A DNA stretch of 64,000 nucleotides, taken from IMG/VR virus record IMGVR_UViG_3300050026_000481, positions 1 through 64,000 of that record. One strand, 5' to 3'. Shown here piece by piece: positions 4,506-57,896 of the stretch; positions within the stretch are counted from its first letter, which is position 1, and each line of letters starts with the position of its first letter. The notes beneath the pieces are model-generated. The model made no database searches. It was not told the DNA's origin and saw nothing but the letters and a program-made list of their open reading frames with translations. Origin of the DNA: a virus. Both the position numbers and the translations under genes were made by a program.

Positions 4506-4954
4506 CCTGTGGCCCCCTAAACCTAACCCCCGCCGAATTTTGGGAACTAATGCCCTTTGAGTTTGTATTGCTCTACGAAGGCTACACAGCGCGCGAGAAA
4601 ACAGCCGATTTCCGCGCGGCGTGGCAAACTTCGTTAATGATGAATATGTGGAAGGATGAAAAGTCACCAGCGATAACCGTCAGCGATATCCTGCCGTGGG
4701 TTCCGAACGAACCAGCGAGAACGGAAACGAAAAATAAGAGATTAGAAGCGGTAGGAGAACGGGAAAAAGTGGATGGATATAGCAAAGTCATAATTGACTA
4801 TGCCGCGCTGACTGGCAAGGATTTGGATACACTTACGCCAGAGGAAGTATCAGCGTTTGAAACTGAAGCTATAAACTTTTCCGTCGCATCGCAACTCAAC
4901 GCACCAGGGTTTAAGATGTTTGAACGGAAAAAATACGGGAAATTCCCTGATTAG
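4472..4954 (+). CDS. Tail assembly chaperone, -1 frame extension (gpGT-like)
   Basis: The frame entered by the -1 slip encodes about 160 residues. It reads through F-K-N-L-L-E-V-A, then L-T-P-A-E-F-W-E-L-M-P-F-E-F, the motif typical of the second half of phage tail chaperones. An in-frame ATG at 4550 could give a shorter independent product, but it would cut the conserved motif, so expression as a fusion of about 314 residues with the upstream ORF is more likely. In known phages the fusion is the minor product that recruits tail tube subunits to the tape measure. Confidence 0.8.
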   Translation: MRFNFKNLLEVACGPLNLTPAEFWELMPFEFVLLYEGYTAREKTADFRAAWQTSLMMNMWKDEKSPAITVSDILPWVPNEPARTETKNKRLEAVGEREKVDGYSKVIIDYAALTGKDLDTLTPEEVSAFETEAINFSVASQLNAPGFKMFERKKYGKFPD

Positions 4955-4957
4955 AAC

Positions 4958-5140
4958 ATGCACCACGCAACCGCTAAAACTGTACATCATGCAACTGTTA
5001 AGGCAGCACACCACGGAGCGGTTGCCCCCTACGTGAAACCCACCGCAGTGCATCACGCGACGGTAAAAGCGGTACACCACGGTACTACTACTAAACAAAG
5101 CGCGGCAAAGCCGATTATTAAGGTTAAGGTGAAGAAGTAA
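4958..5140 (+). CDS. His-rich repeat peptide between chaperone and tape measure
   Basis: 60 residues made of five H-H-A/G-x-V/A units such as V-H-H-A-T-V-K-A, ending in a basic V-K-V-K-K tail. It starts 3 nt after the chaperone stop, and its stop is immediately followed by the tape-measure ATG, so translation is probably coupled. No family is recognised. The paired histidines could bind divalent metal, and the basic tail could bind nucleic acid or the tape measure. Whether it ends up in the virion is unknown. Confidence 0.6.
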   Translation: MHHATAKTVHHATVKAAHHGAVAPYVKPTAVHHATVKAVHHGTTTKQSAAKPIIKVKVKK

Positions 5141-5141
5141 A

Positions 5142-8100
5142 ATGGCTGGTATAAATGAGATAATGGTGGCCATAACCGGCAATGCCACTGGTTTAAAGGC
5201 GGCGCTAGGCGAAGCTGAAACAAGTACAAGTGGCTTCGCTTCTAAGCTAGGCGGCATCGGCAGCATAGCCGCCGCTGGTCTTGGTGGTGCAGCCGTAGCC
5301 ATCGGTGCGTTTGCCTTGAAGAGTGCTTCGGATGTCGGTGGCGCGTATAAGACTATTGAAAAGCAGACAGGTGAAACTGGGACTGCCCTTACTGCACTTA
5401 AAGGTAACTTTAATACCGTATTCTCAAATGTTCCTGAAGATGCAAACACTGTAGCTACAGCCCTAAGTGATGTCTACGACAAGAGTGCAACGCTTAACGG
5501 CGGGGTAAAACTAACCGGCCAGGGACTCGACGACCTAACTCAGAAATTCCTTAATTGGTCGCGTATTAGTGGCGTGTCGGTTACTAGCCTAGTTGATGCA
5601 ACAACCGCGTGGGGTGGCGCGTGGCACATGACCTCAGCGCAGGTCAGCGACTCGATGGATGAAGTAGAAAAAGCATCACAGGCGACGCACGAGGATGTCA
5701 GCACCCTCACAGCCGACTTACAGAAGATGGGCCCCGCGGCTACACAATTAGGATTATCATTCAAAGAAACTACCGCCGACGTTGCTGGGTTTGAAGAAGC
5801 AGGATTGAAATCCACTAGCATCACCTCCGCAATGAACAAAACGTTTAGTGATGCTACTAAAGCTGGTAAAGACGCGCATACTGAATGGGAACAGGATATC
5901 GATACATTAACGAAATATACAACCGCCGTCCAAAGCGGTAATAAAGCGCAAGCAGAAGCTATAACAAAAACATCTGATTGGAAGCAGGTTACGACTGACT
6001 TTTCAGCGAGGACGCTTACTCAATTAGTCACCGCCGTCGGCGAAGGAAAAATGAGTGTCGCCGACATGAACAAGATGCTGGAGAATAGTTCGGGGGACAT
6101 CAACAAGACGGCTTCCGATACTATGACGTTCGGTATGAAGCTTGACGAGTTCAAGAACAAACTAGAAACTGCGTTCGCGCCGTTGGGCATAAGTATAATC
6201 AATATATTAACGAGCTTCCTTAATATTCTTACTCCGATTATTCCTGTTATAACTGCTCTAATTTCTGGTTTTACCTCGTTACCGATGCCCATCCAGGGAG
6301 TTGTCATGGCCGCCGGTTTGCTCGTCGGCGGCCTCGGCGCGCTTAATCTTGTGCTTGGTAAGTTTAATATGAGCATCACAAAGTTACCGGCCGATATCCA
6401 AAAGGTTGCCACCGCATTAAAGAACTTAGACGTAAGTAAAGTCACGAGCCTTTTAGGTATGGGGGGCAAGGCAGGCGGAACTGGTGGATTCGACAGCATG
6501 CTGCAGACCGGCGAAGGGGCGGCCGTGGGCGGCGAGGGTGCCGAAGGTGGGATGCTTGCGAGTTTAGCCCCCGCATTATTACCGGTTATCGCAATAGTAG
6601 CCGCTATCACCGCAGGGTTTGCTATTTTATATGCCACATCTAAAACGTTTAGGGATATGATAAGCGGCGTTGTTACTACGCTACAAAATGTACTAGGTTG
6701 GGTCCAGCAAATCGCTAGTGCGCTGATGAGTGGGAACTTCTCTCAAGCAGGGGACTTACTCAAGCAGGGGTTCCAAGGCGCGATTGATTCAATCAAGAAC
6801 TTCGACTTCGGCGCGTGGGCCGGTAAGATGGTGACGTCGATTCAAGAGTCCGCTGGAACTATCGGCGGCATCCTGATGGGTGCGTTTGATACTCTGAAAA
6901 ACATTGATTGGGGTGGAATCCTTTATGGGATACTTACCGCGATTGATAACCTCCTTACTCAAGCGATGAATTTTGACCCTACATCTCTTGTTAATAATCT
7001 TATTGACGCTATAGGTGGTGCGTTCGATTCTCTATTCGGCGGCGGCAGCGGCGGAACGGCGGGGGCAAAGGCGTCTACGGGGATATCCGGCGGCTTAGGG
7101 AAAGGAATGGAAAAAGCGGGTCCGGACATACTCGGCAAACTTGGGGATGTGTTTGTTAAGCTAGTTGCACTACTCCCGACGATATTTATGAAGGTCGGAA
7201 TAGCGCTCGCCACCGCACTCGGAAAGGTTGATTGGGGTGCCGTATTTGGAAAATTAGGTGAAGCCATCGGTAACGCACTCGGTGGGATTGGGGATTACCT
7301 TTCAAAGGTAGATTGGGGGACCGCAATCTTGGGGCTCTTTAAAACGCTTACAAACGCAGGAGGGTCATTTTTAACCGCGATACTCGCGTTGTTCAGAACA
7401 GTCAACTGGCTTCAAATATTTACACTTATATTCGTTACTATCGCTTCATTCGGACAAGCGATAGTTAAGGGTCTATTAGCGGTTGACTGGGGTAAAGGAA
7501 TTGCGGCGTTATTAACCGCAATCATGAACCTTGACTGGGGTGGTTTCGCTAAATGGGTATGGGGTGAACTCCAACTCGCTATAGGTGCAATTGTCAAGTG
7601 GCTTGAAGGATTAGATTGGGGTGGGTTTGCTAAGTGGGTATGGAACCAACTCCAAATAGAGATAGGTAAGATTATTGCCTGGATTGAAGGTTTAGACTGG
7701 AAGGGGTTCGCTAATACAATTTGGACTGATATTCAAGATGCGCTTAAGGATTTCGGAAGCTGGTTACTCACGGCTGCTGAGAATTTCTTTAGCGGACTTC
7801 CTGGAAAAATCACTAGTGCTATAAGTGGATTTGGTGCTTGGCTGATGTCCGCCGCGGCCGGTTTCTTCGGCGGTCTACCTGGAGCAATCACGAGTGCTAT
7901 AGGTGGATTTGGAAACTGGTTACTTACCGCCGCCGACGGCTTTTTCACTGGACTTCCCGGAAAAATCACGAGCGCTGTAAGTGGCCTTGGTGCTTGGTTA
8001 ATGACTGCAGCATCGGGCTTTTTCACCGGCATACCTGGGGCATTTTCAGATGCGATAGGGAAGGTCCACGTTACGCTTGATACAACCGCCCCCTTCCTTC

Positions 8101-15651: not shown

Positions 15652-16161
15652 ATGACAATAGACGTTTATGTTCTCACGGGTTGCGAGTATTGTGCGTCTC
15701 TTGAGGCAGGGATTTCGAGTGCCGGATTGAACGTTACCATGCACACCGACCAGGGCAACGGCGGTTGTGGCAGCGCGAATCCATCGACAATCATCGATGG
15801 GAAATGTTATGGGTATCCTGGTTGCGATGTAGACTGCCAGTTGGCGGCGATTAAAGCCGCGGTATCTTCATCTTCTACCCCTACCGCAACCACAGCTAAC
15901 CCTACTACGACAAGTACCGCAGCAACCCCGGCAGCGGCGGCCGCCACCCCTGAGTGGATGACCACTAAGTGGGGAAATGAGCTTACAATCAACTGGGGGG
16001 CTGAGAACCCTAAACCGGTTATTGCTGAAACCCCGGTTGGCTGGGCAGCACCAGATATTAGCTTAACGCCCGTGCTACCGCTGCCGCCGACGATGGCGGC
16101 CGGTATTACGGTTAGCCTGAGGGATGAGAAACGGATGCCTAAGGGACGAAAAGTGGCATAA
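15652..16161 (+). CDS. Glutaredoxin-like protein with Thr/Ala-rich linker
   Basis: 169 residues. Residues 1-75 read as a glutaredoxin-like fold: strand D-V-Y-V-L-T-G, active-site C-E-Y-C, then N-P-S-T-I-I-D-G-K in place of the usual T-P-T-x-x-I-x-G motif, and additional Cys pairs. Residues 78-105 are a low-complexity Ser/Thr/Ala/Pro linker, and the C-terminus has W-G-N-E-L-T and repeated Pro. Sitting among tail fibre genes it may be a virion-associated thiol oxidoreductase. It is one of three C-x2-C redox modules in the tail operon. Confidence 0.6.
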   Translation: MTIDVYVLTGCEYCASLEAGISSAGLNVTMHTDQGNGGCGSANPSTIIDGKCYGYPGCDVDCQLAAIKAAVSSSSTPTATTANPTTTSTAATPAAAAATPEWMTTKWGNELTINWGAENPKPVIAETPVGWAAPDISLTPVLPLPPTMAAGITVSLRDEKRMPKGRKVA

Positions 16162-16174
16162 GATAAGATATAAT

Positions 16175-16708
16175 ATGAATAAACCCCAATATGAGGTTAT
16201 GAAATTGAATGATATAGGCATCAGTAGAGGGTACCTAACTAACCAAACTCTTGAAGAACGATTTTGGTCCAAAGTTGATAAATCAGGCGATTGTTGGATA
16301 TGGACTGGTGCTGGGAATGGTGGGGGTTATGGGCATTTTATTGTTAAACTCAATAATAAGTGGCAACCATTTAAAGCTCACCGCCTCGCGTATCTCTTAG
16401 CATATAATGAAATTCCAAACGGCATGCACGTTCTTCATAAATGCGATAACCCTCTTTGTGTGAAATCTGAACATTTGTTTTTAGGAAACCACGCGGACAA
16501 TATGAAAGATAAGGTAATTAGAGGGCGCAGCAATAAAGGGCTTCGTTCGTTCCATGTATGTAAACTAACATGGAATGAAGTTAGAGAGATTAGGTTACAA
16601 TATATCGCGGGGATTCCTGACGCGGCGCTTGGTAGGATTTATGGGGTGTCTCCTCAGAATATTGACCGCATTGTTAATTATGAAACATGGAGAAAAGAGG
16701 AAATTTAA
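16175..16708 (+). CDS. HNH homing endonuclease (zinc-loop type) inside the tail operon
   Basis: 177 residues from the ATG at 16175; an upstream in-frame start would overlap the previous gene by 38 nt. The core R-L-A-Y-L-L-A-Y-N-E-I-P-N-G then H-x-C-D-N-P-x-C then H-L-F-L-G-N-H-A-D-N-M is the HNH_3-type zinc-binding nuclease motif. The C-terminus (L-G-R-I-Y-G-V-S-P-Q-N-I) resembles an HTH used for target recognition. It is more A/T-rich than its neighbours, consistent with mobile origin, and ends exactly at the start of the next structural gene. Confidence 0.88.
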   Translation: MNKPQYEVMKLNDIGISRGYLTNQTLEERFWSKVDKSGDCWIWTGAGNGGGYGHFIVKLNNKWQPFKAHRLAYLLAYNEIPNGMHVLHKCDNPLCVKSEHLFLGNHADNMKDKVIRGRSNKGLRSFHVCKLTWNEVREIRLQYIAGIPDAALGRIYGVSPQNIDRIVNYETWRKEEI

Positions 16709-21879: not shown

Positions 21880-21900
21880 TTCGCAGCATTCTAAACATTG

Positions 21901-22290
21901 ATGACAAACACATTTCGTGTTTCACCTAATGCTGATACAAAACATATCATGCGCAGAATCCGCGCGCGGGTTGACAACTGTAATCTTCCTGAGTGTTGGG
22001 TCCTACGCAAGCCAGGTCGTGATAAGATATGGTTGCGTAAAGGTGATGTTACGGGGTGCCCGGACAAAGGTAAACTCATGACAATATCCCGCCTGTTGTA
22101 TCTCTTTGAATATGGTGAGGTGCCAGAAGGGGCAAACATCAAGACCGTCTGTGGCACAAAATTTTGTCAGAACCCAGCCCACATGCGCATCGAAGGTTAC
22201 CCTGTATCATATGGGCATGTGTCTGGGCAAATAGCGCGACACATACTCACAGCCGAACAGGCGGCAGAATGGTTTAGGGATGATGAATGA
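21901..22290 (+). CDS. HNH-type zinc-loop protein
   Basis: 129 residues from the ATG; a TTG one codon upstream is not needed. Residues ~63-100 carry R-L-L-Y-L-F-E-Y-G-E-V-P-E-G and then C-G-x-x-x-C-x-N-P-x-H-M-R, which parallels the zinc-binding nuclease loop of the protein at 16175. The catalytic HNH Asn and second His are less clear, so it may be a degenerate or DNA-binding-only member. The C-terminus is helical and overlaps the next start by 4 nt. Confidence 0.6.
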   Translation: MTNTFRVSPNADTKHIMRRIRARVDNCNLPECWVLRKPGRDKIWLRKGDVTGCPDKGKLMTISRLLYLFEYGEVPEGANIKTVCGTKFCQNPAHMRIEGYPVSYGHVSGQIARHILTAEQAAEWFRDDE

Positions 22291-22461: not shown

Positions 22462-22599
22462 GTGTCTCCTTGCGAAATCTGCGTCTCCTATGAATACGAA
22501 GGCGGCCTTGTGTGGTGTTCCCAACCATCAGGAAGTGTTGTGCTATTTGATAATAGGCCATGTTTGAGGTATGTGAAGGATGGACACAAGAAAATATAA
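22462..22599 (+). CDS. 45-residue four-Cys micro-protein
   Basis: GTG start one base after the previous stop. Spacing is C-E-I-C, then V-W-C, then P-C-L-R-Y, which is the C-x2-C...C...C-x2-F/Y plan shared by at least six other micro-proteins in the window. It overlaps the start of the HNH gene by 20 nt. Four Cys can hold one zinc ion. Function is unknown. Confidence 0.5.
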   Translation: MSPCEICVSYEYEGGLVWCSQPSGSVVLFDNRPCLRYVKDGHKKI

Positions 22600-23299
22600 G
22601 CCTAAAAAGTGCAAGGGGTGTAATATAAAATTTACCCCGCACAATGCAGGTACCATGTATTGTAGTAAATGTCGGCCTGAAAAAGATAGACAGTATAGGT
22701 TGGCGAATCGCGAAAAAATACGTAAAAAAGTTGATAAGTGGGTCAAAGAAAACAGGGAAAGGAATACTAATAATAAAAGGAATTGGTATTTATCAAATCG
22801 GGATAAAATCTTAAAAAAACGGAGCGAGCATTACGCGCAACACCGCGAAGCTATGCTAGAACGGCAAAAAAAGTATCAAAAGCGTCCAGAAGTGCGCGAA
22901 CACAAGCTCAAGCGTCAGCATATATATTATCAGGAGTATAAAAAGAGACCAAGTGTGCGAGAACAGAGGCGCGAATATTTACGAAAATACCGAGAAGAGC
23001 ACCCTGAAAAGGGAAAAATGGTACACCACAGGCGGCGCGCTCTTGAGAATGGCAACGGTGGCTCTTATACAGTTGAAGAACTAAACCAATTGTGGCACGA
23101 ACAAAGAGGCTTTTGCTATTACTGTGGTGAACTCCTCTATAAAACATTAAACAGTGTTTATCATATAGAGCATAAGACTCCACTATCACGCGGCGGCACA
23201 AACGATATTTCTAACATTGTATTAAGCTGCGCTGAGTGTAACTTGCGCAAAGGCACAAAGACGGATAAAGAATTTTTAATCGAAATAGGTAGGCTATAA
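22580..23299 (+). CDS. HNH endonuclease (NGNGG type) with N-terminal zinc finger
   Basis: 239 residues. An N-terminal C-K-G-C...C-S-K-C zinc finger (residues 11-31) is followed by ~100 residues of basic helical repeats (K-R-P-E-V-R-E-H and similar). Then come the linker N-G-N-G-G and the HNH core C-Y-Y-C-G...H-I-E-H-K-T-P-L-S-R-G-G...L-S-C-A-E-C-N. Catalytic His and Asn are present. The same design recurs at 24497, 37212 and 57222. It is A/T-rich and likely a free-standing homing endonuclease. Confidence 0.9.
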   Translation: MDTRKYKPKKCKGCNIKFTPHNAGTMYCSKCRPEKDRQYRLANREKIRKKVDKWVKENRERNTNNKRNWYLSNRDKILKKRSEHYAQHREAMLERQKKYQKRPEVREHKLKRQHIYYQEYKKRPSVREQRREYLRKYREEHPEKGKMVHHRRRALENGNGGSYTVEELNQLWHEQRGFCYYCGELLYKTLNSVYHIEHKTPLSRGGTNDISNIVLSCAECNLRKGTKTDKEFLIEIGRL

Positions 23300-24496: not shown

Positions 24497-25240
24497 CTAT
24501 TTTCTTTTACTCAACCACTCAAAATATTCTACATCAGTTTTTGCCCATTTTTGTTGATTGCAACTCAGATGAGCCAAACCAACATTAGACATATCATTGA
24601 CCCCACCTCGCGAGATTGGAATTTTGTGGTCTATTGTTGGGGGGTCGTCAAATCTTTTAAAAAAAGGTTTACCACACAAATAACATAAACCATCTTGGTG
24701 TTTGAATAATATTATTTCGGCGTCGTGTGGTAACTTTCCGCCGTTTCCTTTTATGCGCGCCCTCCGGTTTTGTACTAATATCCTTACCTTCTCCGGATTG
24801 TTCCTACACCATCCACGAGCGCGTTCACGCTCTTTTTCGGGATTCTTCCAATACTCTTCACGCTGGCGTTCAAGTATCTCTTCACGATTTTTCTTTTGCC
24901 ATTTGCGGGTAAGTTCGCGCAGGTATTTACGGTTTCCTGCACGGTATATTGCTTGGCTGGCTCGAATCTTATCTCCATGTTTTTGCCGATATCTGCGTCC
25001 AATTTCGCGGCAAGTGTCACACGTTTTAAATCGTTCAGATTCATTAGGCCTACCACAGTTATTACAGTTTCCAAGTGTGTGCCTTCGCTCGTAGGTGCGT
25101 TCATCCTCTTTCTTTAAGTATGCCACTCGGTTCTTTTTGTACCATGCTCGTCGCTTTGCGCGGCACAAACTACATTTTTTAAAGCCGTCAGCTTCAAATT
25201 CTTTACGGCATTTAGTACAAACAGAGATATTGATAGACAT
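24497..25240 (-). CDS. HNH endonuclease (NGNGG type), leftward
   Basis: 247 residues. Two N-terminal zinc fingers (C-x2-C...C-x2-C at residues 8-26 and C-N-N-C-G...C-D-T-C at ~59-78), a basic helical repeat region, N-G-N-G-G at ~168, and the core C-Y-L-C-G...I-D-H-K-I-P-I-S-R-G-G...L-S-C-N. All key residues are intact. It converges with parB, ending 5 nt from that stop. A TATA element (25264-25274, minus strand) and an inverted-repeat site (25315) precede it. Confidence 0.9.
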   Translation of the reverse strand: MSINISVCTKCRKEFEADGFKKCSLCRAKRRAWYKKNRVAYLKKEDERTYERRHTLGNCNNCGRPNESERFKTCDTCREIGRRYRQKHGDKIRASQAIYRAGNRKYLRELTRKWQKKNREEILERQREEYWKNPEKERERARGWCRNNPEKVRILVQNRRARIKGNGGKLPHDAEIILFKHQDGLCYLCGKPFFKRFDDPPTIDHKIPISRGGVNDMSNVGLAHLSCNQQKWAKTDVEYFEWLSKRK

Positions 25241-35508: not shown

Positions 35509-36096
35509 ATGCCTATCTGTAAGTGCAGCTTTTGTAATAGGAAGAATCAGCCAGTAGAATGGTTTAGTGTTAACCCGAAAACTGATGAGCGATATAAGAC
35601 GTGTGACAAAGGCCGCGAACATAATAAGCGATGCTGTAGGGGCTTCACACACTTAGAAATGAATATATTATGTGAATGGTGTGGTCAGAACGTTGTCACA
35701 GGAAGACGGTCCCAACGTTTTTGTAGTGCGGAACATAGGACATTATGGCATTCTAAGAATCTCAATGTACGGGGTAAGGCCAAAGAGCGAGTACGGGGCA
35801 CAATTTATCGGGCGCAAAGGAAGGGTATAGAGTTTTCAATTACGCGAGAGTATGCATATGCGCTTGTAAGAAGTAGATGCTATATATGTGGGGGGATAGA
35901 ATCATCAGGGATAGTAGGACTTGACCGTATAGACAATGATGAAGGGTACACGTATTCAAACACAGTAGCATGTTGTGGCCACTGTAATACTTGCAAGAAT
36001 GCATTTACAATTCCACAGATGCGAAAGGTTATAGAAACATATGATAAAATGCAAGCAGTTAAGCCGTCAGCCGCGCCAGAGAAAGCGGCAAGGTAA
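35509..36096 (+). CDS. HNH endonuclease (GxDRI type)
   Basis: 195 residues. N-terminal zinc-finger Cys (C-K-C-S-F-C; C-E-W-C-G...C-S-A-E-H) are followed by a basic helix and the nuclease core C-Y-I-C-G-G...G-L-D-R-I-D-N-D-E-G-Y...N-T-V-A-C-C-G-H-C-N. The D-R-I-D motif and Asn define this HNH subgroup. It is a separate type from the NGNGG enzymes. Gene neighbours are small Cys proteins and the packaging module. Confidence 0.82.
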   Translation: MPICKCSFCNRKNQPVEWFSVNPKTDERYKTCDKGREHNKRCCRGFTHLEMNILCEWCGQNVVTGRRSQRFCSAEHRTLWHSKNLNVRGKAKERVRGTIYRAQRKGIEFSITREYAYALVRSRCYICGGIESSGIVGLDRIDNDEGYTYSNTVACCGHCNTCKNAFTIPQMRKVIETYDKMQAVKPSAAPEKAAR

Positions 36097-36431: not shown

Positions 36432-36794
36432 ATGCCACGCAAGGATGAGAAGAGTTACAACAAGTATATGCGCAACTATATGCGCAGGCAACGGTCAGCG
36501 GCTAAGGTTGCCGGGTTGTTAGAGGACGGCAAGACCGAGGAGGCAGAGGCAGAGAGGCAAAGGCTTGAGGTAGAGGAAGAGAAGCAAGAGTTCAAGATGG
36601 AAGAGGCAGAGGACCTGCGCCTCATAGTCGAGGATGCAATCAAGGAACTACGGGCCGAGGAAGGCTTGGACCCAGTAATCAAAGCACGTGCTATCTTCCA
36701 GGGTGCGGAAACCGCATTGAAGTTGCTGAAGCTAACCGATTTGGCCAAGAAGGTGAAGGAACTACAAGAGGAGAAGGAGGACTCAGGGGTCTAA
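36432..36794 (+). CDS. Putative terminase small subunit
   Basis: 120 residues, highly charged and helical. A basic N-terminus (Y-N-K-Y-M-R-N-Y-M-R-R-Q-R) is followed by Glu-rich helices and a C-terminal L-K-L-L-K-L-T-D-L-A-K-K-V-K-E-L segment. The first gene upstream of the large terminase, with basic DNA-binding and helical oligomerisation regions, fits small terminases. The HTH is not obvious, and an HNH gene separates it from the large subunit. Confidence 0.5.
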   Translation: MPRKDEKSYNKYMRNYMRRQRSAAKVAGLLEDGKTEEAEAERQRLEVEEEKQEFKMEEAEDLRLIVEDAIKELRAEEGLDPVIKARAIFQGAETALKLLKLTDLAKKVKELQEEKEDSGV

Positions 36795-37211: not shown

Positions 37212-38198
37212 ATGCCAACGTGCAAACAGTGTGATAGGGTACTAGTAACAAAGGCTACCGGTAGACCTAGAAAGTATTGTGAGGGGTGTCTACTTATAGT
37301 TAAAGCAGAACAGGCCCGGGTTAGACACATTAAAAACAAGAAACCGAAAACGTGTTTATCCTGTGGCGCACGTTTCACACAGGTCGGGCGTACTAAGTAT
37401 TGTGATACTTGCCGGCAAGTGGTCTGTGTAAAATGCCATAGACCGAAAGAGCACGATGAGTACAAAACCTGCCTAGCATGCCGCAACGTTACGCGCAAAT
37501 GGGGTAAGAACAACCCAGAATACTTTCAAAAACGCGATGAAACAAAACGCGCCAACCGACGCGCGCAAGGGTTGTGTCCGAAATGCGGAAAGCCACGGGA
37601 ATCTGAACAGTACGCAACTTGCAAGGCATGTCGAGAACGCGGGCGCGTATGGAATGCAACTTACGAATTGAAACACCCGGGATACGCGGCAGCCAACACA
37701 CGCACATGGAAACTTATTGCAAAGCAGAAAGAAGGCCGCTGTTCATCGTGCGGCCGACCCTGTGAGGATTCCGAGTACAACACCTGCCGCTACTGCCGCA
37801 GCCGCAAGAAAGCACAGAGGCACAACCGCCGCGCAGCCGCTAACGGCAACGGCGGCCGACATACGGCCGCGGACGAACGCGAACTCTTCAGCGCGCAGGA
37901 CTTCAAATGCTTCTACTGCAACCAACCCCTCTTCAAAACCCTCAACCCGGACACGAGACATATAGAACACATTAAATCAATATCAAACGGCGGCAGCAAC
38001 GCGGCTTTTAATATCGTCCGTTCTTGCGACTTATGCAATAACGACAAAGTAAGCAAATATAACGATGACGCTCCTGCTCTTCTTAATGCTCTAGCAGATA
38101 AAGGCACGATAACCGACGCAGAACTCAAGAAGAGTTTGATTGATTTATCCGCGGCGCTTAACGAGAACCTTATTTTACGTGTTTGGCGAGGTGAATAG
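37212..38198 (+). CDS. HNH endonuclease (NGNGG type) with multiple zinc fingers
   Basis: 328 residues, the longest NGNGG member. Four or more C-x2-C pairs before residue 210 give a chain of DNA-binding fingers (C-L-S-C-G...C-D-T-C; C-P-K-C-G-K-P-R-E-S-E...C-K-A-C-R-E-R-G). The linker N-G-N-G-G-R and core C-F-Y-C...H-I-E-H-I-K-S-I-S-N-G-G-S-N...R-S-C-D-L-C-N-N-D follow. The last ~40 residues are a helical tail. It ends where the terminase ATPase gene starts, and shares its promoter. Confidence 0.9.
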   Translation: MPTCKQCDRVLVTKATGRPRKYCEGCLLIVKAEQARVRHIKNKKPKTCLSCGARFTQVGRTKYCDTCRQVVCVKCHRPKEHDEYKTCLACRNVTRKWGKNNPEYFQKRDETKRANRRAQGLCPKCGKPRESEQYATCKACRERGRVWNATYELKHPGYAAANTRTWKLIAKQKEGRCSSCGRPCEDSEYNTCRYCRSRKKAQRHNRRAAANGNGGRHTAADERELFSAQDFKCFYCNQPLFKTLNPDTRHIEHIKSISNGGSNAAFNIVRSCDLCNNDKVSKYNDDAPALLNALADKGTITDAELKKSLIDLSAALNENLILRVWRGE

Positions 38199-39058
38199 TG
38201 CCAAGCGACACCCTAGAAGCAGAAATAAAACGCCTGGAGGCCGCAGGCCGCCGTCGCCTCTCTAAGAAAGAAGCCACTAGATACAACCTCCACAAAAACG
38301 ACCTAAAGCGTTTTGCTCGTTATCTCGGCATAAAAAAGCTGGACGAATGGCAGGAGAAGGTTTTAGACAGCAAAAGCAGCCGGATAATCTTGAACTGCAG
38401 CCGCCAGGCCGGCAAGTCAACGGTCACCGCAGTCCTCGCCGTCCACCACGCTATTTTTAAACCTGATAGCATGGTAATCGTCATCTCTAGAATCGAAGCG
38501 CAAAGCCTTGAGGTGTTTAAGAGAATGTCAAACTATTATAAGGAAGTCTCATACGCGCCTCACGCCACAGAAGACACCTCCCATTCACTAAAACTTTCCA
38601 ATGGTTCCCGAATAATCGCCCTATCCGGCCAGCAACCTGACAGCCTGCGTGGATACGCGGGGGTATCCCTACTCATAATTGATGAAGCGAGCAGGGTTTT
38701 GGAAGAAACCTACAACGTCGTGAGGCCAACTTTGGCCGTCAGCTCTGGGCGGGTTATTTTGCTTTCGACTCCACATGGCCGCCGAGGATTCTTTTTCGAA
38801 AGTTGGATGGAAGCAACAGACCGATATAGGGATAACCTTGAAGGCTGGGAATCCGCCAGCGTAACGGCTGATGAGATACCGCGTATAAAACCCAGCTTCC
38901 TTGAGCAAGAAAGGAAGAAGTATCCGGAGTGGTTTTATCGCCAGGAGTACATGTGCGAGTTTCAAGATAATATATCAAATATTTTTAGGTCGGTCCATGA
39001 AGCCTTCGAGCACGTTGACGCCGACGGCAACGAGTGGCAGTTCGATATCGGGTTGTAG
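38198..39058 (+). CDS. Terminase large subunit, ATPase part
   Basis: 286 residues, GTG start overlapping the HNH stop. Walker A is S-R-Q-A-G-K-S-T (residues 68-75), Walker B L-L-I-I-D-E-A (158-164), and the coupling motif S-T-P-H-G (~184-188). The ORF ends after the region F-Y-R-Q-E-Y-M-C-E-F, where intact terminases continue into the nuclease. The nuclease domain is encoded separately at 40530, about 1.5 kb downstream. It drives DNA translocation into the prohead at the portal. Confidence 0.9.
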   Translation: MPSDTLEAEIKRLEAAGRRRLSKKEATRYNLHKNDLKRFARYLGIKKLDEWQEKVLDSKSSRIILNCSRQAGKSTVTAVLAVHHAIFKPDSMVIVISRIEAQSLEVFKRMSNYYKEVSYAPHATEDTSHSLKLSNGSRIIALSGQQPDSLRGYAGVSLLIIDEASRVLEETYNVVRPTLAVSSGRVILLSTPHGRRGFFFESWMEATDRYRDNLEGWESASVTADEIPRIKPSFLEQERKKYPEWFYRQEYMCEFQDNISNIFRSVHEAFEHVDADGNEWQFDIGL

Positions 39059-39072
39059 GGGGGTTTGAAAAA

Positions 39073-39225
39073 ATGCGACACTACTGCGGAAGAAGTAATA
39101 TAGATATTGACGGTTTGTTACCAGCGTGTCGTTTTGCTTATTGCGATTGTTTTATCGGCAGTAAATACGAAGGACGTAAAATAGAATATTGCTATGAGTG
39201 CGATGAATTTAAAGAAGGAATTTAA
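39073..39225 (+). CDS. 50-residue Cys-rich micro-protein inside the split terminase
   Basis: ATG follows GGGGGGTTTGAAAAA. Six or more Cys (H-Y-C, A-C-R-F-A-Y-C-D-C-F, Y-C-Y-E-C-D-E-F), ending in the C-D-E-F signature of the four-Cys family. Its location between the ATPase and the HNH gene suggests it came with the insertion. Confidence 0.5.
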   Translation: MRHYCGRSNIDIDGLLPACRFAYCDCFIGSKYEGRKIEYCYECDEFKEGI

Positions 39226-39237
39226 TCCGTGACAGGC

Positions 39238-39355
39238 TAGTGTGTTATTAATCACACTACCAAGTATGGCGAAAGGCGTTGAGTTGGTGGCGCGGGAACC
39301 CTGTCCAGGATAAGCCGATTGATAGTCGGTCGCAATATATTTCCAGCTCAACGCC
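39238..39355 (+). ncRNA. Structured element upstream of the inserted HNH gene
   Basis: TAGTGTG/CACACTA (39238-39244 with 39253-39259) is a perfect 7-bp hairpin. It is followed by a 13-bp stem GGCGTTGAGTTGG/CCAGCTCAACGCC (39275-39287 with 39343-39355, one G-T pair). The enclosed 55 nt fold into CCTG/CAGG and CCGATT/AGTCGG hairpins. This three-way shape is more than chance would give in a 170-bp gap. It may be an RNA element linked to the mobile HNH, a translational control site, or the remnant of an intron. Confidence 0.5.
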
Positions 39356-39391
39356 CGTCAAATACTTATTGGTTTATAGGGATATGAAAAA

Positions 39392-40549
39392 ATGGTGGTT
39401 TGTTCTAACTGTCATAAGGGTTTTGAAGAAGATGGATTTAAAACGTGTCCGGCCTGTCGTGCAAAGCGCCGCGAATATGACCGACGACCAGACCAAGTTG
39501 AGAAGCGACGCGAATATCTCAGCCGACCGGAGGTGCACGAACATAAGTGCGAATATTACCGTGAATATCAGCGCGAATATCGGAAGCGCCCCGGGGTTAA
39601 AGAACGGGAGCGACGAAACCGGCAGAAACCAGAAAACAAAGAACGCGTAGCTGCGTATGGCTATATATGGCGACAGAAACCAGAAAATAAAGAATTGCAG
39701 TTAGAAGGGACAAGAAAATATAGGGCATTACATCTTGAAGAATGTAGGAAACGTGACCGTGAATTGAAACGTGAGAAACGGAAACAACCAGAATTTCTCG
39801 AAAAACTGAGAGCTATACAGCGTAAATCTTATTGGAAAAATAAAGAACAGCGCAATAAACTTGGTCGTGAGATACGAATAACATTAGCTGGTAGATACAC
39901 AGAAGCGAAACACAGCGCAAAGCGCCGAGGTATACCATTCGAACTCACACAGGAACAACATAGCACAATCATAAGGCAACCGTGTTTTTGGTGCGGCGTT
40001 ACGCCAAATGGTTCCGATGAAACCTTAAACGGAGTTGACAGAATAAACCACGATAAGACGATAGGTTACGTATTAGATAACGTAATACCCGCGTGTACGG
40101 GGTGTAATAAAGGCAGAAACACCATGACAGTTGATGAGGTAGTAGGATACGTCGAACAAGTTTTCCAGTGGCAACACCTTAGAACGTTAACCGGCACACC
40201 ATTACAGCGTCGCAATGGAAAAGTAGAACTCAGTATGCGTGATTACTACGGAAAGTATAAGGGAAAAGCGAAGAAGCGCAATATTCCTTTTGAATTATCG
40301 TTTGAAGAGTTTTTTAAGACAGTAAAAAGACCATGTTATGTGTGTGGGTATCATCATTTCGAAGACAAAGGACATACTGCAAACGGCATAGACCGATTTA
40401 ATAACGCGGTTGGTTATACAGTTGATAACAGCCTTCCGGCATGCAAATGGTGTAACGTATGGAAAGGTGAGGGCACATATGCTGAACTACTCGACCGATT
40501 TACGCGGATACGCGCGGGGTTAAGGAAGAATGCCAATCAACCAAGATGA
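39392..40549 (+). CDS. Double HNH endonuclease inserted in the terminase locus
   Basis: 385 residues. N-terminal zinc finger C-S-N-C...C-P-A-C, then about 130 residues of basic repeats rich in R-E-Y, and two HNH cores of the GxDRI type: C-F-W-C-G...G-V-D-R-I-N-H-D...C-T-G-C-N (residues ~190-235) and C-Y-V-C-G...G-I-D-R-F-N-N...C-K-W-C-N (~310-355). Two complete cores in one chain are unusual. It ends 17 nt inside the nuclease ORF of the terminase. Confidence 0.88.
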   Translation: MVVCSNCHKGFEEDGFKTCPACRAKRREYDRRPDQVEKRREYLSRPEVHEHKCEYYREYQREYRKRPGVKERERRNRQKPENKERVAAYGYIWRQKPENKELQLEGTRKYRALHLEECRKRDRELKREKRKQPEFLEKLRAIQRKSYWKNKEQRNKLGREIRITLAGRYTEAKHSAKRRGIPFELTQEQHSTIIRQPCFWCGVTPNGSDETLNGVDRINHDKTIGYVLDNVIPACTGCNKGRNTMTVDEVVGYVEQVFQWQHLRTLTGTPLQRRNGKVELSMRDYYGKYKGKAKKRNIPFELSFEEFFKTVKRPCYVCGYHHFEDKGHTANGIDRFNNAVGYTVDNSLPACKWCNVWKGEGTYAELLDRFTRIRAGLRKNANQPR

Positions 40550-41279
40550 TTTCGGAAGAAGCAGACGGCCATATGTTCAAGGGTTAGAACGCGTCCTCAC
40601 CGACGAAGACATCTTTAAAATCCACGGCATCCAAAACGTCCAAAACAAACCGGCTGAAGAAGAAAAGAAACTCACGCCAATCGAAGCCAAGAATATAATA
40701 GTCGGCATCGACCTCGGTAAGGAAGTAGACCGCACGGTAATCGTTGTCATCCAGCCCACCGGCGAGTACGAAAAACCTATCTACCAAATCCACCGCATCA
40801 TTCCCGTCGCCCTTGGCACATCCTACCCGGATATAATCCGTGGACTAGTCGAACTAGACAAACATTTGAGAGAACTAAATGCCAAGGAAATCAGTTATGT
40901 GATAGACGCAGGCGGCGCGGCAGGGGTGGTTGACGCGCTGGAGGAAGAGCTGCCGATGGCTGACGTCTACCGCGTCCACTTGACTGCTGGCCTCAACGTA
41001 AACATGACCGGCATGAAAATTAGTTTACCGAAAAGAGAAATGGTAACCACTCTTGCTCGCGTCCTCGATGAGCATAGGATTGACGTGGTAAGCACCCGAG
41101 ATGAAGGCGTCGTGCTACTTGAGTCAGAACTTAACAATTATCAAATGAAAATAATGGATAGTGGCTACGACAAATACGAAGCCGGCACGGGTCACCATGA
41201 TGATGCAGTCTGCGCTCTTGCCGAGGGCCTCTGGTTTTCCGAACATGAGGCGGCAATGGGGCAGGCGAGGCTATTCTGA
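40530..41279 (+). CDS. Terminase large subunit, nuclease part
   Basis: 249 residues. The RNase-H-like nuclease residues are D61 in V-G-I-D-L-G, D126 in Y-V-I-D-A-G-G and D224/D225 in H-H-D-D-A-V-C-A-L-A. It has no ATPase motifs. An in-frame stop at 40521 separates it from upstream sequence, so it must start independently (ATG behind AAGGAAGA) unless RNA splicing occurs. With the ATPase part the total of 535 residues matches a complete large terminase. Confidence 0.88.
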   Translation: MPINQDDFGRSRRPYVQGLERVLTDEDIFKIHGIQNVQNKPAEEEKKLTPIEAKNIIVGIDLGKEVDRTVIVVIQPTGEYEKPIYQIHRIIPVALGTSYPDIIRGLVELDKHLRELNAKEISYVIDAGGAAGVVDALEEELPMADVYRVHLTAGLNVNMTGMKISLPKREMVTTLARVLDEHRIDVVSTRDEGVVLLESELNNYQMKIMDSGYDKYEAGTGHHDDAVCALAEGLWFSEHEAAMGQARLF

Positions 41280-43180: not shown

Positions 43181-43726
43181 ATGGAAGAAGTAATAGACGA
43201 CGAAAATATTAATAAGGCCTGTAGGGTTTGTGGTGTCCAACTTACATCAGAAAATAGTTACCCATCTCACCGGGCGAGTGCAAATTGGATATGCAAGTCA
43301 TGCAATTCAAAAAAGAACCATCGTTATTGGCTAGAAAATCCAGAATATAGAACGTTTAGTTTTGAAGCTACAAGGAAATGGAGAATCGACAACCCGATTC
43401 GCCAGTGGGCTACTGCATCTTTATTAAATCATAAATTATTAGGTCATAAAATAGAAATTTCTGCGGATGAGTTAGAAATATTAGCTAGAACAACGTTGAA
43501 TTGCCCGATTTGTGGAATACTAATTGAATGGACAACCGGAAATGGCCGTAATTGGAACGGTCCGTCGTTAGATAGGCGGGACAATTCTGAAGTTCTTGAA
43601 AAAAATAACGTGTGGCTTATTTGTATGAAATGCAATACGACAAAATCATCTAGAACTATGGGGGAGTTTGTTGAATATTGTGAAAAGGTTGTAAGTAATA
43701 AAGAGAGGCTCTTAAATGACCAATGA
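43181..43726 (+). CDS. HNH-like endonuclease (third subgroup)
   Basis: 181 residues. N-terminal zinc finger C-R-V-C-G...C-K-S-C-N, a helical basic linker, and core C-P-I-C-G...S-L-D-R-R-D-N-S-E-V...W-L-I-C-M-K-C-N-T-T-K. The D-R-R-D motif stands where other members have D-R-I-D. The gene is A/T-rich compared with neighbours. Catalytic competence is likely but less certain. Confidence 0.75.
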   Translation: MEEVIDDENINKACRVCGVQLTSENSYPSHRASANWICKSCNSKKNHRYWLENPEYRTFSFEATRKWRIDNPIRQWATASLLNHKLLGHKIEISADELEILARTTLNCPICGILIEWTTGNGRNWNGPSLDRRDNSEVLEKNNVWLICMKCNTTKSSRTMGEFVEYCEKVVSNKERLLNDQ

Positions 43727-51894: not shown

Positions 51895-52049
51895 CGCCAA
51901 AAGCAAAACAATCTCAACGCGACAGCCTGCGCGACAAAGCGGCTAAAGTAGACCGTTATCTGATGGATGGCTATTCTGCGCATGATGCTGAGTTAATGGC
52001 AGAAGCAGAAATGGAGCTAGAATCCGGCGGAAAACTGGATACTAAATGA
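51891..52049 (+). CDS. 52-residue charged protein
   Basis: R-D-S-L-R-D-K-A-A-K-V-D-R-Y-L then G-Y-S-A-H-D-A-E-L-M-A-E-A-E: basic then acidic helix. ATGA overlaps at both ends. Immediately upstream of an HNH gene and may be its partner. Confidence 0.45.
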   Translation: MTPKAKQSQRDSLRDKAAKVDRYLMDGYSAHDAELMAEAEMELESGGKLDTK

Positions 52050-52372
52050 CTACAGACAGCCGCAGGGAAAAACTCGCGTTAGCAGTATTTACTAGGAACG
52101 CTAAATGGCCGAAGGTTAGAAAGTTATTCTTAAAGTTGAACGCTAGATGTGCAGTATGCGGCGGCAGGAAACGATTAGAAGCGCATCATGTGAAACCTTT
52201 CCAGTGGTATCCGGAACTAGAATTAGATGAATCCAATCTGATTACCCTCTGCGCTGCGCATCACCTTTTATTGGGTCACCTGGGACACTGGACAAGTTAT
52301 AATGAGAGAATTGTCGAGGACGCGGCCGCGTGGGCAGAAAAGATAAGGGAAAGGCCGAAATGGCGGCAGTGA
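52046..52372 (+). CDS. HNH endonuclease (compact, McrA-like)
   Basis: 108 residues. C-A-V-C-G-G...L-E-A-H-H-V-K-P-F...N-L-I-T-L-C-A-A-H-H is the standard HNH with a zinc site. It lacks the fingers and basic repeats of the larger members. In tailed phages a small HNH of this kind often sits near the packaging genes and aids terminase cleavage, but this one lies 11 kb from the terminase. Confidence 0.85.
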   Translation: MTTDSRREKLALAVFTRNAKWPKVRKLFLKLNARCAVCGGRKRLEAHHVKPFQWYPELELDESNLITLCAAHHLLLGHLGHWTSYNERIVEDAAAWAEKIRERPKWRQ

Positions 52373-53442: not shown

Positions 53443-54213
53443 TTATGCAGCTTCACATGTTAAAGTTTTTCGTTTGATGATATCTAAGCCTTTCTCCGGT
53501 GTGATAATGCAAACGTCAATCTCACCACCACACCCGCGTTCACCTACGGCAAAGCTTTGGGCTTTAATCGTCGTTTCGATGAGAAATGTCGCTAAATCGA
53601 TTGAATCCTGTAGTGTCAGATTTTGGTAAGGGATGAAAAACGCCAGTTGGACTTGTTCAAGAAGGTCATTTTTTACATGATTATCTAAGGAATTTATTGC
53701 CCCTTCAAGAGCGTTACTATAGCCTTTTAACAAGCGATACGTCACTTCTTTCTGTCCTGCGAATGTAAGGGTAAACACTCCTTCTCCCTGTTCGATTGGC
53801 TTAGAGTTTGAAGGAATATCGAATGAATAGACTTTACCGTAAGGGTCAGCCTTATCAAATCCTGCTACAATGAATGAAATTGGTTCAACTCGCTCTTCTG
53901 GTTTTGCAGCATTCCACTTCTCGGCAAAAAAAGCTGAAAGCTTCTCAGAAAACCCAAGTACCGATAATCTCTCCTTTTTTAGGTATTTATCTAATTCTGG
54001 AAGATATGAATGAATTGGCTTTGGGCCTATGGCAGCAAGGCCACACGTTACCGCCCCAACATAGTTATGACGCTTAAACGAAAGCACTTTAGGAGTACTG
54101 TCGTAACTTCCAACATAGGTTCTCTCTTTCTTATCTTGAAACTTTACGGTCTTCCTACTTTCAGCGGCCAAAACCAAGCCTTCGGGTACTTTTACCACGA
54201 AAACCAACGACAT
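53443..54213 (-). CDS. Proteasome-beta-like Ntn hydrolase
   Basis: 256 residues from the ATG at 54213; an upstream in-frame GTG would lie over the TATA box. The N-terminus M-S-L-V-F-V-V-K-V-P-E-G-L-V-L-A-A-E-S-R-K-T matches the first hairpin of proteasome subunits (usual T-T-x-V-G...G-V-V-L-A-A-D-S-R). Ser replaces Thr as the likely residue 1 after Met removal, and Glu replaces Asp17. G-A-V-T-C-G-L and F-I-V-A-G-F-D fit later strands. It could be an active peptidase, a self-assembling relative of Anbu, or an inactive decoy for the host proteasome. Confidence 0.75.
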   Translation of the reverse strand: MSLVFVVKVPEGLVLAAESRKTVKFQDKKERTYVGSYDSTPKVLSFKRHNYVGAVTCGLAAIGPKPIHSYLPELDKYLKKERLSVLGFSEKLSAFFAEKWNAAKPEERVEPISFIVAGFDKADPYGKVYSFDIPSNSKPIEQGEGVFTLTFAGQKEVTYRLLKGYSNALEGAINSLDNHVKNDLLEQVQLAFFIPYQNLTLQDSIDLATFLIETTIKAQSFAVGERGCGGEIDVCIITPEKGLDIIKRKTLTCEAA

Positions 54214-54239
54214 AGAGTAGCTATGTGTGACAATGAGCG

Positions 54240-54247
54240 TTATATAC
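54240..54247 (-). promoter_or_regulatory. TATA box of the leftward proteasome-like operon
   Basis: Minus-strand GTGTATATAACG is centred 30 nt before the ATG at 54213, giving a leaderless mRNA. Having its own promoter and orientation marks the operon as a moron. Confidence 0.72.
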
Positions 54248-54249
54248 AC

Positions 54250-57001: not shown

Positions 57002-57220
57002 ATGCTAAAGAAGCCCAAACTTCCCGTTCTCACTATATTTGTCCCTGAGTATTGCAGCAACTGCCGCACGCCGTACAACGAAGACAATTTTAAATTCACA
57101 CTAGTCGGTTCGGAACACCACTGTGCATGGCTTTGCAATAGCTGTTTCGTGCGGCTTCACGCGGAGGCAATGGAAAAAGAAAATGCGCTCCGTTTAGATG
57201 TGGAACTTACGAGGAGATGA
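57002..57220 (+). CDS. 72-residue zinc-binding protein
   Basis: Y-C-S-N-C-R-T and H-H-C-A-W-L-C-N-S-C-F (residues ~18-47), with a conserved Cys pair spacing, then a helical tail. It lies 3 nt after the portal and before the inserted HNH, so it may be part of the head operon or cargo of the HNH insertion. Confidence 0.5.
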   Translation: MLKKPKLPVLTIFVPEYCSNCRTPYNEDNFKFTLVGSEHHCAWLCNSCFVRLHAEAMEKENALRLDVELTRR

Positions 57221-57221
57221 A

Positions 57222-57896
57222 GTGAGCGAGAAGTTATGTACGCGTTGCCACAAGCCGCACGATGAGGATACGAAGCATTGCGCAGCGTGCAAAACGTATG
57301 AACGTGATTGGAAGCGACAGCATCCACCTTCACCTGAGAAAAAGAAAGAAAGAGAAGAATACGAAAAACAGTGGCGCAAGGATAATCCCGAAAGGGTAAA
57401 AGCACAGCGAACGGCTTGGAAAAGAAACAACCTAGAGAAGGTCAAAGAAAGTGATGCTAAGTCATACCAAAAATATAAAGAAGAAATCCAAGCACGTAGG
57501 CGCGAGTTTTATAAAACCCACCCTGACAGATATGAAGCAACCCTAAAGAAGAAAGCCGGTTACCAAAAAACCCACCCACAGGTGCAGAAAAAGGCACACA
57601 AAAAGTGGGCGAAGACACACCCAGAAACTATTATAAGACTTTCACATGAGTATCGTGCTCGCAAGATGGGGGCGGCTGGCACATTTACCATTGAAGAAAT
57701 TAAACAGCTGAGGGAGAAACAGGGCAATCGTTGCTACTATTGTGGTGATTATTTAGTTAATGTTCATATTGAACATAAGACCCCACTTATCCGTGGTGGT
57801 TCTAATGATATTTCAAATATCGCACTTTCCTGCCCGCTTTGTAATATAAGGAAGCACGATATGACAGAAGAAGAATTTTTGGTGGTGATAAGATGA
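57222..57896 (+). CDS. HNH endonuclease (NGNGG-related) in the head operon
   Basis: 224 residues from GTG at 57222, 7 nt behind GAGGAG; an ATG at 57198 in the same frame would overlap the previous gene more. Zinc finger C-T-R-C-H...C-A-A-C-K, basic repeats (K-T-H-P-D-R, K-T-H-P-Q-V), then C-Y-Y-C-G...H-I-E-H-K-T-P-L-I-R-G-G-S-N-D-I-S...L-S-C-P-L-C-N. The linker reads M-G-A-A-G instead of N-G-N-G-G. It interrupts portal and protease without splitting either. Confidence 0.9.
   Translation: MSEKLCTRCHKPHDEDTKHCAACKTYERDWKRQHPPSPEKKKEREEYEKQWRKDNPERVKAQRTAWKRNNLEKVKESDAKSYQKYKEEIQARRREFYKTHPDRYEATLKKKAGYQKTHPQVQKKAHKKWAKTHPETIIRLSHEYRARKMGAAGTFTIEEIKQLREKQGNRCYYCGDYLVNVHIEHKTPLIRGGSNDISNIALSCPLCNIRKHDMTEEEFLVVIR

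Follow-up and report, generated by a model that had tools for sequence, protein, structure and literature searches.

The first 64,000 nucleotides of the IMG/VR virus record IMGVR_UViG_3300050026_000481 (86,814 bp in total) form the stretch analyzed here, referred to as the window. In this window, the large terminase subunit (TerL) is encoded in two separate open reading frames (ORFs), one for the ATPase and one for the RNase H nuclease, between which a cassette with an HNH endonuclease gene is located (Table 1). It was shown that the two-gene state is widespread among relatives, co-inherited, and independent of the cassette, and that both genes of the window are intact. It is very probable (roughly 86%) that the virus is one member of a broad tailed-virus lineage in which TerL natively consists of two proteins, and that the HNH cassette entered the gene boundary later. 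From the sequence we infer that both proteins would be made, bind each other, and package DNA without being joined.

The ATPase and nuclease genes

The ATPase ORF contains a Walker A motif (SRQAGKST), a Walker B motif (LIIDEAS), and a C-motif (LLSTP). It matches PF03237 (Terminase_6N, 1.3e-17) and phrog_7579 ("terminase large subunit", 1.1e-54), and the best fold matches of its AlphaFold model (predicted local distance difference test, pLDDT, of 91) are the ATPase domains of P74-26 and T4 gp17 over approximately 255-266 columns. Motifs, family match, and fold together mark this ORF as the ATPase half of TerL, and no second TerL ATPase was found across the whole record. As had been noted in a first-pass annotation made from the sequence, the ORF stops (39056-39058) shortly after the CEF motif, namely 31 residues past it. 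The ORF covers a complete ATPase domain that ends past the hinge helix. The position of the C-terminus is the same across approximately 118 relatives, and the distance from QEYxCEF to the stop codon has a median of 36 residues in the relatives compared with 38 in the window. This conserved C-terminus indicates that the break sits at the TerL hinge and not at a random insertion point.

The nuclease ORF begins with its own ATG 1,471 bp past the ATPase stop, preceded by the Shine-Dalgarno (SD)-like sequence AAGGAA, in agreement with the first-pass description of a free ORF roughly 1.5 kb further on. Its RNase H motifs read IDLG, VIDAGG, and HHDDA, and in an alignment of 76 nucleases the residues D61, D126, H223, D224, and D225 are strictly or almost strictly conserved. 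The protein matches phrog_27743 (1.2e-16), a family listed with "unknown function" that is also matched by 76/76 nuclease relatives. A nuclease profile aligns with the TerL nuclease of P74-26/G20c (2e-17), and the same hidden Markov model (HMM) matches the C-terminal half of the one-gene TerLs of Riverbug, MMP17, and HGTV-1. When the AlphaFold model (mean pLDDT 82.5) was submitted to Foldseek, the top 13 hits were all TerL nucleases (G20c, P74-26, T4, human cytomegalovirus, and SPP1). The RNase H fold, the three acidic metal-binding motifs, and the homology to the C-terminal domain are those of a TerL nuclease half, and no second TerL nuclease was found across the whole record. Based on the structure model and the profile matches, phrog_27743 can be identified as the predicted RNase H nuclease subunit of TerL, which assigns a function to this family and also means that half of the enzyme can escape pipelines in which TerL serves as a marker.

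In the first-pass annotation both parts were thought to add up to one normal terminase. Their summed length (286+249 = 535 aa) exceeds the 415-437 aa of the one-gene relatives because the nuclease carries an N-terminal extension of approximately 54 aa, which is shared in part with the closest relative. Homologous ATPase (40% identity) and nuclease parts with the same motifs and folds are found in the TerLs of Riverbug (Thermus), MMP17 (Meiothermus), and P74-26/G20c, which combine Terminase_6N with Terminase_6C. Those of Riverbug and MMP17 are one polypeptide of 415-417 aa, whereas the window has two genes, which in split relatives lie up to kilobases apart.

Split and one-gene terminases among relatives

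Relatives were collected with an ATPase alignment, yielding 80 viral contigs, and with a second alignment, yielding 80 loci in GTDB genomes; an HMM of the nuclease built from the hits was then used to class 165 loci. The counts refer to best-scoring matches and do not constitute an unbiased census. Separate ATPase and nuclease ORFs were found in 113 loci and a one-gene TerL in 44, while one locus was truncated; in the remaining seven, no nuclease was detected alongside a short ATPase. The survey, which the first-pass annotation had proposed, thus recovered both intact and split terminases. Hosts of the split form include methanogenic archaea, Acidobacteria, Chloroflexi, Planctomycetes, Alphaproteobacteria, Actinobacteria, and Clostridia, and prophage-like split loci occur in three isolate genomes of cultured Bradyrhizobium (sp. 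Ai1a-2), Ferruginivarius (F. sediminum WD2A32), and Arthrobacter (A. castelli DSM 16402). Each of 12/12 long split records other than that of the window encodes exactly one TerL ATPase. When 199 genomes belonging to a single phylum were searched with the phrog_27743 profile, 5 contained a match.

The arrangement is that of two separate genes and not of exons or frameshifts. Wherever both halves of a split locus share an orientation (112/112), a nuclease start codon precedes the first nuclease motif. Relative to the ATPase, the nuclease is read in frame +2 in 68 loci, +1 in 23, and 0 in 21; in 62 loci the best nuclease start and the ATPase stop overlap, in 31 they lie at most 30 nt apart, and in 89 an SD-like sequence accompanies the start. 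In most split loci the halves abut or overlap with no gene between them, and in one (L116) the nuclease is located on the opposite strand from the ATPase. The closest relative of the window (IMGVR_UViG_3300046673_000114; ATPase 45-48% and nuclease 52% identical) carries its nuclease 7.8 kb downstream of the ATPase, with contents that differ from those of the window: an HNH-like gene, recognized by eye, comes next after the ATPase, and many other genes follow. Approximately 1.8 kb between its terminase halves (L092:7605-9439) are nearly free of ORFs.

In a careful tree, the window, its closest relative, and a locus of a fen euryarchaeon (L093) group together with 99/96 support among split loci. 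The split or fused state changes 6-7 times on the tree, so that fission and/or fusion recurs; the split loci were not recovered as monophyletic on this tree, which is poorly resolved at depth and sets neither the direction of change nor the root. ATPase and nuclease distances are correlated (Mantel r 0.54, 0/1000 permutations), as is expected under joint inheritance; shared ancestry alone would also yield such a correlation.

Several loci depart from the simple pair. Two or more TerL-type nuclease ORFs follow the ATPase in tandem in L018, L041, L105, L133, L136, L165, G010:C363, and G010:C177, with several nuclease copies on single contigs of G010, which suggests that the gene of the cutter subunit has been duplicated or exchanged. 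Among the seven loci without a detected nuclease, L101, L149, and L160 end within approximately 0.5 kb of the ATPase, and L076 has a separate nuclease ORF (4711-5325) from the other, planctomycete-type and otherwise one-gene subfamily, which may represent another type of split that arose independently. In L012 (2582-4717) the ATPase lies within a 711-codon open frame and may be fused to an upstream gene. Three prophage-like modules (L169, L143, and L112) consist of a gene resembling that of the small terminase subunit (TerS) and a split TerL, followed by host-like genes; L169 and L112 also encode a major capsid protein, and the modules could represent either decayed prophages or satellites that form capsids.

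Outside this collection, searches were largely empty. In tblastn against 50,697 phage records, nothing was found for the nucleases of the window and of the Arthrobacter prophage, and that of Bradyrhizobium retrieved only four records, annotated as TerL. A DNA-level search with the window locus gave no match, and a scan of viral contigs using the lone window nuclease gave no relatives.

Alternative explanations and the proposed motor

The nuclease could be a paralogue of TerL nucleases repurposed, for example, as a resolvase, in which case the ATPase would package alone or the HNH protein would cut in the manner of HK97 gp74. Motors of the phi29 type package DNA via an ATPase that does no cutting, and extra tandem nucleases are present in some of the loci described above. 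The HK97 HNH protein works with the terminase in cos cleavage (discussed in PMC10448857). This explanation is nevertheless unlikely, as almost every locus encodes the nuclease directly 3' of the ATPase, often with translational overlap and mostly with no gene in between; the nuclease also co-varies with the ATPase, and its profile matches one-gene TerLs in their C-terminal half.

It is also very unlikely that an HNH homing cassette split a one-gene TerL in the lineage of the window into trans-complementing pieces, the cause implied by the first-pass annotation. An HNH gene does lie between the halves, homing endonuclease genes cluster near terminase genes (PMC10448857), and the mechanism is known for phage ribonucleotide reductase (Friedrich 2007, cited in PMC2988022 and PMC5418858). 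In Aeh1, nrdA is divided, like the window locus, into two pieces on either side of an HNH homing endonuclease gene (mobE) that has an RNA structure 5' of it (PMC2988022). There, however, the endonuclease made the split, whereas the split in the window predates the insert. Uninterrupted close relatives and a split coinciding with the insert were not observed: most of the 113 split loci have no insert, the nearest relative is split as well with other contents between its halves, and the ATPase ends at the same conserved site everywhere. The base composition of the cassette, moreover, is unlike that of either terminase half. The relatives therefore refute the cassette as origin of the split, and with more than 100 related loci in the two-gene layout, the HNH gene appears as a later lodger.

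A highly improbable explanation is that the halves are exons of a TerL that is spliced through a group I or group II intron, or otherwise joined, with the HNH gene as intron-encoded endonuclease. The terL genes of ICP1 and Jug phages lie, like that of the window, in at least two pieces near homing endonuclease genes and have been shown experimentally to be joined by intron splicing (PMC10448857, PMC12363816), and a strong folded element is present in the window's interval. The window, in contrast, has separate genes: an Rfam search at gathering and permissive thresholds detected neither an intron nor any known RNA, the nuclease comes with a start codon, an SD-like sequence, and an N-terminal extension of its own, and the relatives show variable frames, gaps of up to 7.8 kb, and an opposite-strand case. 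Of the two possibilities raised in the first-pass annotation, action in trans is thus in line with the 113/165 split loci, and splicing is disfavored. An intein was also considered; a stop codon ends the ATPase, the conserved C-terminus carries no added domain, and no intein family was matched. Neither is a canonical TerL polypeptide with a hinge encoded, as the ORFs are separate and show no joining signal. Since the arrangement requires no intron, intein, or frameshift and none was detected, the data point to an inherited two-subunit TerL. An assembly or sequencing error that broke one gene is conceivable for a metagenomic contig, and its probability becomes negligible because more than 100 contigs of differing sample and assembly origin, the three isolate genomes among them, show the same layout independently of one another.

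Under the favored reading of a natively two-protein TerL, the ATPase and the RNase H nuclease would most likely assemble non-covalently at the portal. An ATPase ring would pump the DNA, and the nuclease would dock on the ATPase, the DNA, or the portal to perform the cuts of initiation and termination. Into the boundary between the two genes, which lies at the TerL hinge, the HNH cassette (Cys-rich ORF, folded element, and double-HNH gene) would have landed later, and another HNH gene would have landed 5' of the ATPase. Candidate docking elements are the conserved ATPase tail and the N-terminal extension of the window nuclease.

Several observations weigh against this reading. A T4 gp17 laboratory construct cut at the linker, with ATPase and nuclease polypeptides separated at the same boundary as in the window, keeps both activities and completely loses translocation (PMC3012670), which makes an unlinked motor unexpected; the hinge has also been described as essential (PMC9958956). 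The natural split version, by contrast, is widely maintained, and split enzymes may have evolved a strong non-covalent interface or a translocation that does not need the nuclease domain. Furthermore, the window nuclease alone has no Pfam match (Terminase_6C matches 45/76 nuclease homologues, the window protein not among them), and L027, L093, and L141 have no detectable nuclease partner. L093, which belongs to the window's own small clade and has a short ATPase, lacks a nuclease within 8 kb on either side, and the best match of a genome-wide profile search lies on a different, 161-kb contig.

A further-reaching conclusion, to which we would give slightly less than even odds, is that a widespread lineage of tailed viruses uses a two-subunit terminase whose ATPase ring translocates DNA without a covalently attached nuclease. 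The hinge and "translocation domain" of T4 would then not be universal, and the nuclease would be an exchangeable separate cutter, of which some loci carry tandem duplicates and at least one locus a substitute from another subfamily. As natural unlinked TerLs exist, including prophage-like loci of cultured isolates, the need for an attached nuclease in translocation becomes testable.

The TerL nuclease domain has been called "a universal feature across Caudovirales" (PMC7824862). Targeted full-text literature searches, with most subscription papers outside their scope, returned intron-spliced split terL genes only and no natural two-gene TerL. A paper on cluster AN Arthrobacter phages (PMC5679792) was rejected as precedent because it concerns lysis genes and not the terminase. 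Such an arrangement may already be familiar to annotators. Actinophage annotation vocabularies include the terms "terminase, large subunit (ATPase domain)" and "(nuclease domain)".

The HNH cassette and neighboring features

Table 1. Features of the terminase region in the window
Feature	Position	Strand	Description
Candidate in TerS position	36432..36794	+	120 aa; tentative, from position and size only
Second HNH gene	37212..38198	+	Pfam HNH match (7.5e-06)
TerL ATPase subunit	38198..39058	+	286 aa; GTG start; Terminase_6N, phrog_7579, fold
Cys-rich ORF	39073..39225	+	50 aa, 6 Cys; read from sequence
Folded element	about 39235..39367	+	hairpin and long branched stem, 25 nt 5' of the double-HNH start
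Double-HNH gene	39392..40549	+	385 aa; zinc finger and two endonuclease VII-like HNH domains; phrog_1035, phrog_3322
TerL nuclease subunit	40530..41279	+	249 aa; own ATG; RNase H fold; phrog_27743, profile, fold

All three elements that the first-pass annotation had placed between the halves are present. The Cys-rich ORF has no match in Pfam or PHROG and is probably an ordinary small phage protein or a passenger of the cassette. The folded element has a minimum free energy of -55.2 kcal/mol (z = -5.3), and none of 200 shuffled sequences was equally stable. It has no Rfam match, BLAST found no related sequence among the sequences searched, and the regions upstream of nine other HNH genes showed no comparable structure. 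RNA structures 5' of free-standing endonuclease genes are known (PMC2988022).

The 3' end of the double-HNH gene overlaps the nuclease start by 20 bp. Its GC content at third codon positions is 37.9%, compared with 56.6% for the ATPase and 55.8% for the nuclease, and kin of the gene are present elsewhere in the same genome. With an intergenic site next to a conserved essential gene, several copies, and a foreign composition, its sequence is that of a probable free-standing homing endonuclease. Boundaries beside terminase genes are well-known sites of such endonucleases (PMC10448857), and the simplest reading is that a homing-type cassette was inserted into an already existing gene boundary. 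A packaging role of the HNH protein like that of HK97 gp74 may also be considered, as both are encoded adjoining the terminase. The window protein is much larger than the small gp74 (385 aa in the window), combines a zinc finger with two HNH domains, and is one of several related proteins encoded by this genome.

The second HNH gene, which does not appear in the first-pass annotation, adjoins the ATPase start, so that both HNH genes bracket the ATPase. Approximately ten HNH-type genes, many of low GC content and some assigned from sequence only, are distributed over the 64 kb (16124-16708, 21898-22290, 22580-23299, 24497-25240 on the minus strand, 35509-36096, 37212-38198, 39392-40549, 43181-43726, 52046-52372, and 57198-57896). 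The candidate in TerS position has no Pfam or PHROG match. One of the HNH-type genes sits between the portal and capsid protease genes, and an ORF on the minus strand (53443-54249) resembles, by eye, a proteasome-type N-terminal nucleophile (Ntn) hydrolase.

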